Assembly (NCBI GenBank): GCA_029556045.1
Contig: JAKQGS010000313.1
Span: 1 to 12,021 of the forward strand
Origin: Pseudomonadota bacterium
Lineage (GTDB): Bacteria > Bdellovibrionota > Oligoflexia > Oligoflexales > Oligoflexaceae
DNA: 12,021 bases
Direction of reading: 5' to 3'
The notes beneath the pieces were generated by a model. It was not told the origin of the DNA. It did not search any database and saw nothing but the letters and a program-made list of their open reading frames with translations. This document shows, in pieces, positions 3,784 through 7,645 of the stretch. The translations under genes were made by a program, and so were the position numbers. The stretch's first letter is position 1; each line of letters begins with the position of its first letter.

Positions 3784-5241
3784 TTAAAGGTCATGAGGCA
3801 TGATATCATGGGGTGAATTGAATTTTTTTAGCGGACTGTAAAAGCGCAGATTCGATATCCGGCTGGTGTAAAGGCAGGCATATTCTTCGACTTGTTTGGA
3901 AAATCGGCTTTTTTCCAAACCGACCCGCATGATTTCACCCCAAACGGGATGAATTTTTTGTTCCCTGGTTTTGATGAGCCCTTTGATTTCGTCTCGCAGG
4001 GTTACCAGCTCGTCCATTTTGCCCTGATATTTTTCTTTGAGTTTCTCAATGTTTTTTTCAAAGGAGCGGGCTTTATGGCGGTCGCCCTCCGTCTGCGCCT
4101 GCTTAAGGTGCCTCATGGAAGCCCGCATCAGGGAATTGACCCGTTGCGCTTCTTCGTCGAGAAGTTCGCTTTCCTGCACTTTGCGGTTGATTTGTTCCAG
4201 GTCGGTGCGGGTGGCTTCAAGTTTGGGTAGTTCGGTAACCAACTCCTCGACAACTAGGAGCGTTCGCCAGTTGAAAATACCTTTGGATCGAATGATGTCG
4301 CCGTAGATATGGTCACCCGCATAGAGAACCTCGTCTCCCTTGATCTGGGCCAGATCCTGAAACAGACGGGCATTGCCGCCCTGATACACCTTGCCTGATT
4401 TAAACGGCCCGGAATGTTGCTTCAAATAGCCGGATTCCGTTAGCACTTCGTAAAATGGCTGGCTGCCGGTAAAAAAACCCGGCTTGCCGGCGCCCACAAA
4501 GATGTAATCAAAATAGTTTTGCCATTTGCTGAAGTCTTCGTGTTCACCGGACAGCAGGTAGGACATCACGCAACTGGTGTAATCCCACATGGAATTGGTC
4601 AGGAGGAACAGGCTCTTGCCCCCGTCCACCAGGCCCACCAAGGTCTCCGCCAGGTGCTTGTCCTTGTCGATATACTGATGGGGATATCGCATCACTTCGT
4701 TTTTGATGGTGCCGTCCCGGTGGCTGAGATCGATGTAGGTGCGCAGATCCTTATAGACCTCCTTGAAGGATTTCTGGATCTTGTCGGGATGTCGACGCAT
4801 ATAGTCCACGATTTCAGTGAAGAGCTGTACCTCACTCAATGCAAAAAATGTATCGATGGACAGAAAATCCTGAGGTTTGAAGCTGGCGGCGTTATAAAAC
4901 ACATGCCGATCATGCTTAGACAGCTGGTGATGCCCGTGAAAGGCAATCTTTACATACTTGTGACCATCGACTTTGAGAAGGTTTCCACGCTCCTGATCGA
5001 CCAATAAACCGCGGATAACAAAATTTGGATTGAATTTGAGGGTCTGCAACTCTTCGGGATAGCCGGCATCGATGAATTTCTTCAGTGTTTCCCGAAAAGC
5101 CAATGCCTCGAAGTTTTCCCGGTTGTAGGTAACCAGTGTATGATCCATGTCGAAGCCAATGGCACGGATGGAGGCCATGTTCAGCGAGCGATTGACAAAG
5201 ATGCGCTCGGGTTTATGAAGTTTTACCGTCCGGTCTCCCAG
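3784..5241 (-). CDS. HAD-IG family 5'-nucleotidase (cN-II-like); start uncertain, first ATG at 5178
   Basis: This is a haloacid-dehalogenase superfamily nucleotidase related to eukaryotic cytosolic 5'-nucleotidase II, which hydrolyses IMP/GMP to nucleosides. Counting from ATG 5178 (464 aa): motif I FDMDHTL has nucleophile D10 and general acid D12, motif II LLTNS has T194, the motif III lysine is likely K232 (GAGKPGFF), and motif IV AGDHIYGDI has D289 and D294. VYQGGN (265-270) and the C-terminal HDIMPHDL are also family-like. Residues about 320-420 form a charged, probably coiled-coil insertion. Catalytic residues are intact. The family motif FVNRSLxM just before motif I is encoded upstream of ATG 5178, so the true protein is longer. 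CTG 5241 has AGGGGG 6 nt upstream; no ATG, GTG or TTG occurs in frame between the PilZ stop and 5178. Other starts are discussed at 5179-5283. Cytosolic; the real substrate is unknown. Confidence 0.9.
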   Translation of the reverse strand: MGDRTVKLHKPERIFVNRSLNMASIRAIGFDMDHTLVTYNRENFEALAFRETLKKFIDAGYPEELQTLKFNPNFVIRGLLVDQERGNLLKVDGHKYVKIAFHGHHQLSKHDRHVFYNAASFKPQDFLSIDTFFALSEVQLFTEIVDYMRRHPDKIQKSFKEVYKDLRTYIDLSHRDGTIKNEVMRYPHQYIDKDKHLAETLVGLVDGGKSLFLLTNSMWDYTSCVMSYLLSGEHEDFSKWQNYFDYIFVGAGKPGFFTGSQPFYEVLTESGYLKQHSGPFKSGKVYQGGNARLFQDLAQIKGDEVLYAGDHIYGDIIRSKGIFNWRTLLVVEELVTELPKLEATRTDLEQINRKVQESELLDEEAQRVNSLMRASMRHLKQAQTEGDRHKARSFEKNIEKLKEKYQGKMDELVTLRDEIKGLIKTREQKIHPVWGEIMRVGLEKSRFSKQVEEYACLYTSRISNLRFYSPLKKFNSPHDIMPHDL

Positions 5242-5283
5242 AAAATGCCCCCTTTTGTGACCATGTGATACACCGTCGTCGGC
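5179..5283 (-). other. In-frame N-terminal extension and start region of the nucleotidase
   Basis: From the PilZ TGA (5284) to ATG 5178 the nucleotidase frame is open and reads, near its end, RIFVNRSLNM joined to the annotated N-terminus. Human NT5C2 has the equivalent FVNRSLxM just before its FDMD motif, so this stretch is almost certainly translated. Two routes are visible. One is CTG 5241 behind AAAGGGGG. The other is ATG 5264, which opens a 13-codon reading (MVTKGG...) with A AAA GGG at 5256-5250 in the correct phase for -1 slippage; the slipped product joins the nucleotidase frame. ATG 5264 lacks a clear ribosome site but lies 19 nt behind the PilZ stop. A single missing G in the G5 run would give the same picture. 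Confidence 0.6.
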
Positions 5284-5880
5284 TCAATTGTCTTCAAACT
5301 GAAGGCCAATTTGATTGTAGCTTTTACCATCGATGCCAATAAAACGTCGTCCATACACAACCTTGCCGCTGACCGTATTGTAAAGATTTCCGTCGATAAG
5401 GATGCGCATGTCCTTAAATTCCGTACCGGGGGCAAAAAGTTTGGAGGCGTAACGGGTTTTAATGGAAATTCCGTGGGAGGACATGTCCATCACGGATTTG
5501 ATCAGCATGGTCTCGTTATCAATGGGGTTCAGGATTTCCACGACCACCCGCTCATCCGCTTCGAAGGGAAAACGCCTGGCCTGCCGGGTCTCTTCGATAG
5601 CCACCAGGCTCTCGAGAGGGAAAACGATATGAACGCCGTTACTGTCGATTTTTTCCGAAACAAAACGCATCATCTGGCACTGCAGATAAAACTTATCCGA
5701 TTTGACCACCTCAATAATATGGGACGGAGTAACCCTATTTTCGAGTAGGATGTGATCATTTTCTGCTTTAAGGATAAAGGTTTGAAATACGATGGGGACT
5801 TTATCCGTGGAGAAAAAAACTGGGCTCTTTTTCTCCGCACATTCCTTCAGCACGTCAAAGGCCGCGACATTGATACTCAT
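5284..5880 (-). CDS. PilZ domain protein, probable c-di-GMP receptor
   Basis: The protein has 198 aa and no signal peptide or membrane helix. Residues 1-95 form a beta-rich domain resembling the YcgR-type N-terminal flagellar-brake fold. The PilZ domain follows (about 97-196) with both ligand signatures intact: RQARR (R99 and R103 of RxxxR) and DMSSHG (D132, S134, G137 of the D/NxSxxG motif). These residues bind cyclic di-GMP in characterised PilZ proteins, so binding is expected. The ATG overlaps the upstream barrel gene's stop by one base (TGATG), and AAGGAG lies 8 nt upstream inside that gene, which points to translational coupling. The nucleotidase follows closely. The output target is unknown; candidates are the kinase or envelope proteins encoded nearby. 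Confidence 0.9.
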   Translation of the reverse strand: MSINVAAFDVLKECAEKKSPVFFSTDKVPIVFQTFILKAENDHILLENRVTPSHIIEVVKSDKFYLQCQMMRFVSEKIDSNGVHIVFPLESLVAIEETRQARRFPFEADERVVVEILNPIDNETMLIKSVMDMSSHGISIKTRYASKLFAPGTEFKDMRILIDGNLYNTVSGKVVYGRRFIGIDGKSYNQIGLQFEDN

Positions 5881-7610
5881 CAGTTGATCTCCTTGTTCAG
5901 CTCCAGATCGCCAAAGCGGTTGAGGAATGGTTTGATCCGGCGAAACGTTGGAAAGGCATATGTGTATTTCACCAGCACGCGCGATTTAGTGAAATCATAG
6001 ACTTTTTGGTCTGGGTTCGAATTGGATAGGGAGAGGTACTCCGCCGACCATCGTTCCGCTTGAGTGGGATCCCAATATAAGCCCGCCTTGTATAAAAGTC
6101 CTGTATCAACCCGGTTGCAAAAAGCCAGGTCTGCGCCACTGGTGGCAATGGCAGAAGACGTATAGCCGCAATTGCCGCTGTGGATGGTTTTGAGGGCGTA
6201 GGCATCCTGGTAATAAGCTATGTCACCCCCTATGCTGAGTTTCTTGTAAAACCGGTATTCACCGTTGATCTGTCCACCGGTGCGGGTGTAGTCCAGCCAG
6301 AAGTCATTAAATATGAGGTCGTAATAGAAAAAATCAAAACGCAGGGTGGTGGCGATGGTGGGAAATGCCATCTTTTGCGTTCCGCCGAAACTCAGCAGCT
6401 TGTCCTCTTTGTCGTCTAAAAAACTAAATGTTTTATAGGAATACTCCGGTGTCTCTTCATTCAATTCCTTGCGGAGAAATAAGTAAAAAATCGACTCGAA
6501 GTTGCGATAGTAGCTGGCGCCGATCCAGGGGACCATGGTGGTGGTGGAGGAGATATTCAAGGTTCGTTTCAACTCCTCCTGTTCGGGACCAGGAAAGTAC
6601 GCTGAACCAACCCTCTTGATCTCATGCATACCGAGAAAACCCATGGCGATATTGTTACCAAATGTTTTCTTAAAGTCGCCGAAAAACTGGTGACGTCGTT
6701 CCATCAAGTCCGGTCGGAATGGGATATACTGAATGTCGGTGGGATCATCCAGGAAGGTCGCCATGCGTTCGTTGTCCGCCTTCCAGTTTTGCAAATAGTG
6801 ATAGCCGAGGAAGGCGGTGGAGTTACCGGTTTCAATAGGACCCAGGCCAATGCCGGCATTGGCAATCAGTTCGTGTCGTTCGTAGGGCTCGGTTTTGACC
6901 GCCGGGGATCCATCAGGCCCGGCTGCAGGGTTGCGCACCGAACCAATCTCCCATTGGTAGCCCCCTTCGATGAACCAATAGTGGGGTCGGGGTGCCAGCG
7001 AGAGCTGGCTGTATCGGTAAAGCGAGCTTTCCAGATTTTCCTGCGCACTTCCCTCGATATCGTCAACATATTCGCCCCTCTCCAGATTGGCGCTCATGTG
7101 CACTAAAGTATTGCGGTGCACGCCGGCTGGAAAACGGGTCAGGTATTGGTTGATCCAGTAGCGGGCGTGATCCGCCCGTCGTTGGCGGTATTCAATCACC
7201 GCGAGCTCAAAGACAGCGCGAGCGGCAAAATCATCGTTGCCGCGTGCCGCCAGTGACAGATACTGCAGAGCTCCCTTATAATTCTCGATAGAGGAGTAGG
7301 AAACCCCGATATAATAGAGATTCATGGACCTCTGACTTACTCGCTCTCTGATCTTTTTCAGATAGGTCAACGCCTTTTGAGGTGATCCTACATGAAAATA
7401 ACAGGCCCCCAGCAGGTTCCAGGTGTCATAATCGCGGGGATAGGCCCGCAGATATTTGCGATAGTATTTAATGGCTGTGCTATACTGCATCGCCTGCTGC
7501 TCCGCCAGGCCACGTCGGAGGTACTGGGCTGGGGCTGCATCAGCGAATGCCTTACTCTTTATCGCGAATACCGCTATAATAATCAGAATGGCGCGCAAAC
7601 GGTACATCAT
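5880..7610 (-). CDS. Exported TPR / predicted outer-membrane beta-barrel protein
   Basis: From ATG 7610 the protein has 576 aa. It opens with a classic signal peptide (MMYRLR, a hydrophobic core ILIIIAVFAI, and cleavage near FADA at 25). Residues about 28-200 hold four or five TPR-like helical repeats (for example QYSTAIKYYRKYLRAYP and NYKGALQYLSLAARG). From about 212 to the end the sequence changes to alternating aromatic/polar strands with Gly, Tyr and Trp and short charged turns, as in an outer-membrane barrel. Two cysteines (C481 and C498) bracket a Ser/Ala-rich stretch and could form a disulphide in a loop. The C-terminus lacks the usual terminal aromatic residue. I recognise no named family. 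TTG 7643 would add 11 residues; ATG 7610 or 7607 gives a cleaner signal peptide, though the ribosome site is weak (GCAGG about 12 nt upstream). It heads the minus arm. Confidence 0.8.
   Translation of the reverse strand: MMYRLRAILIIIAVFAIKSKAFADAAPAQYLRRGLAEQQAMQYSTAIKYYRKYLRAYPRDYDTWNLLGACYFHVGSPQKALTYLKKIRERVSQRSMNLYYIGVSYSSIENYKGALQYLSLAARGNDDFAARAVFELAVIEYRQRRADHARYWINQYLTRFPAGVHRNTLVHMSANLERGEYVDDIEGSAQENLESSLYRYSQLSLAPRPHYWFIEGGYQWEIGSVRNPAAGPDGSPAVKTEPYERHELIANAGIGLGPIETGNSTAFLGYHYLQNWKADNERMATFLDDPTDIQYIPFRPDLMERRHQFFGDFKKTFGNNIAMGFLGMHEIKRVGSAYFPGPEQEELKRTLNISSTTTMVPWIGASYYRNFESIFYLFLRKELNEETPEYSYKTFSFLDDKEDKLLSFGGTQKMAFPTIATTLRFDFFYYDLIFNDFWLDYTRTGGQINGEYRFYKKLSIGGDIAYYQDAYALKTIHSGNCGYTSSAIATSGADLAFCNRVDTGLLYKAGLYWDPTQAERWSAEYLSLSNSNPDQKVYDFTKSRVLVKYTYAFPTFRRIKPFLNRFGDLELNKEIN
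5889..5894 (-). promoter_or_regulatory. Ribosome binding site of the PilZ gene inside the upstream gene
   Basis: AAGGAG on the minus strand lies 8 nt before ATG 5880, within the last codons of the TPR/barrel gene. With the one-base stop/start overlap it indicates coupled translation. Confidence 0.65.
7575..7580 (+). promoter_or_regulatory. Possible -10 box for the plus arm
   Basis: A perfect TATAAT lies about 65 bp upstream of ATG 7646, inside the signal-peptide codons of the divergent gene. The expected -35 position (TTACTC) matches poorly, and the stretch is AT-rich because it encodes Ile codons. It is a candidate only. Confidence 0.2.
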
Positions 7611-7645
7611 TAAACGGCGATACCTGCTTATAAAATGGGACAACT
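7611..7645. other. Divergent intergenic region between the two arms
   Basis: Only about 35 bp separate ATG 7610 (minus) from ATG 7646 (plus). It contains an AT-rich TATAAAAT and the probable TGGGA ribosome site for the plus gene. Because it is so short, promoters for the two arms must overlap each other or the opposite gene, so the arms may be co-regulated. Confidence 0.45.

Follow-up and report, generated by a model that had tools for sequence, protein, structure and literature searches.

A 5'-nucleotidase gene on the minus strand of the window, by which we mean the whole stretch of 12,021 nucleotides analyzed here, appears to be translated from a rare start codon, CTG 5241, that is rescued by a strong Shine-Dalgarno (SD) sequence; we give this reading a probability of roughly two in three. 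The features that enter into the argument are the following:

3784 to 5241, minus strand: cN-II/HAD-IG type 5'-nucleotidase, 485 amino acids if CTG 5241 is the start (PF05761, TIGR02244 and solved structures)
5176 to 5178, minus strand: ATG, the first canonical in-frame start, with no SD (+1.5 kcal/mol); a start here drops conserved residues
5179 to 5241, minus strand: the 21 codons ahead of ATG 5178, encoding LGDRTVKLHKPERIFVNRSLN (conservation, codon usage)
5239 to 5241, minus strand: CTG, the proposed start codon (position in relatives, N-terminal length of homologue models)
5248 to 5253, minus strand: AGGGGG, SD-like, 6 nt from CTG 5241 (-10.7 kcal/mol with an assumed anti-SD)
5223 to 5264, minus strand: short out-of-frame ORF of 13 codons, ATG 5264 to TAA, which includes A AAA GGG at 5256-5250 (SD -3.4 kcal/mol)
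5284 to 5880, minus strand: gene for a PilZ-domain protein, ATG 5880 to TGA 5286-5284, directly upstream in the same frame (PF07238, at the cut-off)

By its sequence, the minus-strand protein is a clear cN-II/HAD-IG nucleotidase, a purine nucleotidase of an ordinary bacterial kind. It matches PF05761 with 474 bits against a cut-off of 28.5, over residues 14-484 of the CTG-started protein, and TIGR02244 with 347 bits against a cut-off of 237, and its nearest solved structures in both sequence and fold are the cN-II enzymes Legionella lpg0095 and human NT5C2. D31, D33 and T35 are invariant in a 39-sequence alignment, composed of the window protein and 38 sequences chosen from 120 listed homologues (4,240 passed among 7,996 scored candidates), and their spacing is that of the HAD nucleophile motif DxDxT. 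The protein is like other members of the family in its full-length match, these three residues, the FVNRSL segment and the fold; the sole unusual feature of the gene is its start codon.

No stop codon interrupts the nucleotidase frame between the end of the PilZ gene, which is read in the same frame, and its own stop at 3784. Read codon by codon in this frame, positions 5283-5179 contain no ATG, GTG or TTG, as had been stated in the preliminary description of this DNA, whose central observation and coordinates agree with the sequence. The one-mismatch codons present in frame are just AGG 5253, CTG 5241, ACG 5229, ATC 5202 and CTG 5184. Standard bacterial gene callers take ATG, GTG and TTG only, so that their model of the nucleotidase would lack its first 21 residues, invariant ones included. 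This constitutes an annotation trap, and the 97% identical homologue P0001 has already been modelled from the methionine equivalent to 5178.

That the segment ahead of ATG 5178 is a translated part of the nucleotidase is well supported by sequence conservation. The preliminary description had held that this frame must be translated, given RIFVNRSLNM ahead of FDMD, and had suggested aligning the N-termini of homologues; such alignment places conserved residues upstream of 5178. For example, (F/Y)VNR, in this or a closely similar form, precedes FDMD in 114 of the 120 listed homologues, as it does in the CTG-started frame of the window, and a leucine seven residues ahead of F/Y (L8 in the window) is found in 110 of the 111 listed homologues that are long enough. 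N17, R18 and N21 are likewise invariant in the 39-sequence alignment. The segment is also covered by the alignments with the solved human and Legionella cN-II chains, and the human alignment is ungapped from its start through the nucleophile Asp, with R18 corresponding to human R39 and D31 to D52 (the structure-match numbering is offset, model residue 11 being chain residue 32). The codon-usage score of 5241-5179 is 5.93 bits, a value reached by 0.2% of out-of-frame stretches, while in-frame coding stretches average 5.90; the underlying table was derived from the ORFs of the window itself, their starts being assumed and 5241-5179 excluded, and out-of-frame stops were penalised. For the 14 codons before CTG 5241 the score is -0.4; since 12% of true coding stretches are equally low, codon usage does not fix the start boundary. 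Core packing of the N-terminus was considered using an AlphaFold model, in which residues 1-6 and 8-19 have pLDDT values below 50, giving no structural support.

Alternatively, the protein could truly begin at ATG 5178, its N-terminal segment having been lost. ATG 5178 is the only canonical codon, CUG is described as a very weak start in PMC11497404, and the six listed homologues that fall outside the 114 are all 464-residue models beginning at the Met equivalent to 5178, P0001 among them. However, these six are gene models, with a longest contig of just 1.5-2.1 kb for three, and ATG 5178 is not preceded by an SD. A short form would also lose invariant or near-invariant residues, including the R18 that aligns with human R39, and the segment ahead of 5178 has retained both its conserved residues and a coding-like codon usage. 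Loss of the segment is thus quite improbable, and ATG 5178 is probably the internal Met22. The models of P0082, P0090, P0100, P0104 and P0107 begin from the same internal Met as that of P0001, and may represent hidden weak starts or contig-edge effects.

Among the near-cognate codons of 5283-5179, only CTG 5241 is suitably spaced from an SD. The AGGGGG that the preliminary description had placed 6 nt upstream of it is present, and is predicted to pair with a standard anti-SD, here assumed, at -10.7 kcal/mol, compared with -3.4 kcal/mol for ATG 5264 and +1.5 kcal/mol for ATG 5178; this pairing includes one G-U pair, and the 3' end of the organism's own 16S may differ from the anti-SD assumed. 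The second-strongest SD among the tested starts of the window is -10.2 (ATG 9332, plus strand), and 7 of the 425 CTG triplets on both strands, CTG 5241 counted, reach -10.7 kcal/mol. The position of the codon points in the same direction. CTG 5241 lies 13 codons ahead of the Ile in RIFVNR, a place at which TTG serves as the start in 6 of 27 relatives, and a start 14 residues before F/Y, as CTG 5241 would provide, is the commonest length among the listed models (29/114; 7 begin with L or V). We infer that ribosomes initiate at CTG 5241 itself, which would be decoded by the initiator tRNA as fMet to yield the 485-residue protein with the N-terminus of its family. The strong SD would compensate for the weak codon, coupling to translation of the PilZ gene, the end of which lies 42 nt upstream, probably aids initiation, and TTG is likely to have been the ancestral start. 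Of the three explanations put forward in the preliminary description, position and SD favour the CTG start, slippage is disfavoured, and sequencing error has become somewhat less likely.

The 27 relatives used in this comparison are distinct loci (28 including the window) that combine a PilZ hit with a match to the motif within 400 nt; some of them are closely related, and loci such as L102, L104 and L107-L109 fall outside the set. Relatives with the PilZ-nucleotidase pair are assigned to Oligoflexales, Oligoflexaceae, Oligoflexia, Pseudobacteriovorax or plain Proteobacteria, together with further genomes. A canonical, unshifted in-frame start is available in 27/27, and none of these relatives needs a CTG start. 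The starts chosen are 17 ATG, 3 GTG and 7 TTG, six of the TTG codons being exactly at -13; one start was picked per relative where several were listed (L079, ATG of five; L087, ATG of two; L096, TTG of two), and starts at least 40 codons away were left out (TTG in L077). The -10.7 kcal/mol at CTG 5241 exceeds the pairing at the chosen starts of all 27 relatives (-1.7 to -8.1). Within the relatives, the mean SD is -6.8 for TTG (n = 7) and -4.1 for both ATG (n = 17) and GTG (n = 3), and the difference between TTG and ATG has a Mann-Whitney p of 0.0008, which is indicative only since the relatives are not independent. The three GTG starts are without stronger SDs than ATG, so compensation does not hold uniformly across the weaker start codons. 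Relatives less close than P0001, most of them some 55-62% identical, use ATG, GTG or TTG. Searches for DNA of closer relatives gave no match in plasmids, phages or viral contigs; genome contigs contained 76 loci, the full-length ones at most 62% identical, and 52 of 58 genomes of the phylum had a match, with full-length genes again at most 62% identical and partial genes at 63, 67 and 74%.

Bacterial genes that start with CTG have been described, but they are very rare. In PMC11497404, CUG initiation is given as about 0.86% of AUG efficiency and CUG as 0.024% of bacterial starts, and the survey in PMC5622118 reports switches to CUG from 2 of 61,358 ancestral AUG starts and 1 of 2,468 ancestral UUG starts. 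PMC5622118 also describes a compensation tendency, in which weaker start codons more often go with strong SDs, but it did not find switches of the SD to be significantly associated with those of the start codon; the stronger SDs of the TTG relatives fit this tendency. The window gene resembles near-cognate bacterial starts (CUG, AUU, AUC) in having no canonical codon and a strong SD, here judged from sequence alone. A CTG start is a known kind of exception; the result would mainly be an annotation correction and leave the broader picture unchanged. In this locus nature also provides a clean test of the power of a strong SD to rescue a CUG start, put at about 1% of AUG by PMC11497404.

A possible second case was encountered in the wider family, where 89 of 90 distinct loci (of 108 with a hit) have some upstream in-frame ATG, GTG or TTG, not necessarily used. 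The one locus without such a codon, L069 (same contig as L112), comes from a Candidatus Lindowbacteria MAG of low coverage (2.5). Around positions 1402-1410 of L112 there is an ATC where the 76% identical L113 has ATG, with AGGAGG ahead (-10.3 kcal/mol), and a third member, L114, likewise carries an ATG close by. Judging from these sequences, the start may be the ATC or an adjacent CTG. L066 was considered as another start-less relative and set aside, having a TTG 32 codons upstream with an SD of -8.0. Two cases, one of them in a low-coverage MAG, make no pattern. By analogy with infC, whose AUU start gives low, fidelity-sensitive initiation, the nucleotidase family could repeatedly take near-cognate starts with unusually strong SDs, an arrangement that would hold synthesis down on purpose and make it depend on the fidelity of initiation, but we regard this idea as highly doubtful.

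The CTG might instead stem from an error in base calling or assembly, or from variation between strains, with a canonical start in the true genome, for instance TTG at 5241 or an ATG 5264 brought into frame by an indel. TTG, found in relatives at the position of CTG 5241, is one substitution away, and AAAAGGGGG is a homopolymer stretch. Set against this is P0001, which differs from the window protein at 16 of 464 residues and is modelled from the same Met as ATG 5178. This model makes an in-frame upstream ATG unlikely in P0001 and argues weakly against an indel error confined to the window, while TTG or GTG would still be compatible with it because gene models can skip TTG. For instance, L012 has a TTG at -13, and P0058, whose longest contig is as long as that of L012, is modelled from a later ATG. 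P0001 is known as a protein alone, from a cluster of 2 sequences and 6 contigs. An extra G in the run, which the preliminary description had raised as a possible error, becomes somewhat less likely given this distinct protein with the same gene model, and error or variation as a whole is an unlikely account of the CTG.

Programmed -1 frameshifting, known in dnaX and IS3-type elements, could in principle join the ORF of ATG 5264 to the nucleotidase frame at A AAA GGG. ATG 5264 begins 20 nt past the final nucleotide of the PilZ stop, the phase of A AAA GGG fits P-site slippage, and the product would carry 22 residues before F, a length within the homologue range (3/114 listed). The preliminary description was right to place A AAA GGG at 5256-5250 in the frame of ATG 5264, but the site, described there as being in the canonical phase for -1 slippage, is not a canonical slippery heptamer, since it does not conform to X XXY YYZ and the post-slip A-site Gly tRNA would face AGG instead of GGG. 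The SD of ATG 5264 is also weak (-3.4 kcal/mol), and positions 5248-5190 fold no better than shuffled sequences (z 1.08) in a model of local, pseudoknot-free folding; three stretches analyzed around the start showed nothing unusual in RNA structure (z 0.63, 1.08 and -0.41). Nor is the layout kept in the relatives examined, 27/27 of which have a canonical start in the nucleotidase frame. The window is therefore like dnaX and IS3-type elements in having an A-rich slip site in the right phase, and differs from them in the lack of a true heptamer, of a visible stimulator and of conservation in the relatives examined. Frameshifting is poorly supported and very improbable here.

In relatives, the cN-II nucleotidase is repeatedly found with the PilZ gene immediately ahead of it, an arrangement that tblastn located in 28 distinct loci including the window (L066, L077-L106). 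In the window the two genes share one frame, as would be expected if readthrough of the PilZ TGA produced a PilZ-nucleotidase fusion. However, a shared frame occurs in 12 of the 28 loci, near the 9.3 expected by chance, the PilZ stop in relatives may be TAA, TAG or TGA, and the 14 codons past the stop score low for coding, if not decisively. The fusion was accordingly rejected as extremely improbable, and CTG 5241 is retained as the favoured start of the nucleotidase. Upstream of the PilZ gene, an ORF at 5880-7643 (minus strand) begins with a TTG that has next to no SD (-0.4 kcal/mol), and a later ATG, which precedes the signal-peptide-like MMYRLRAILIIIAVF, is its likelier start.
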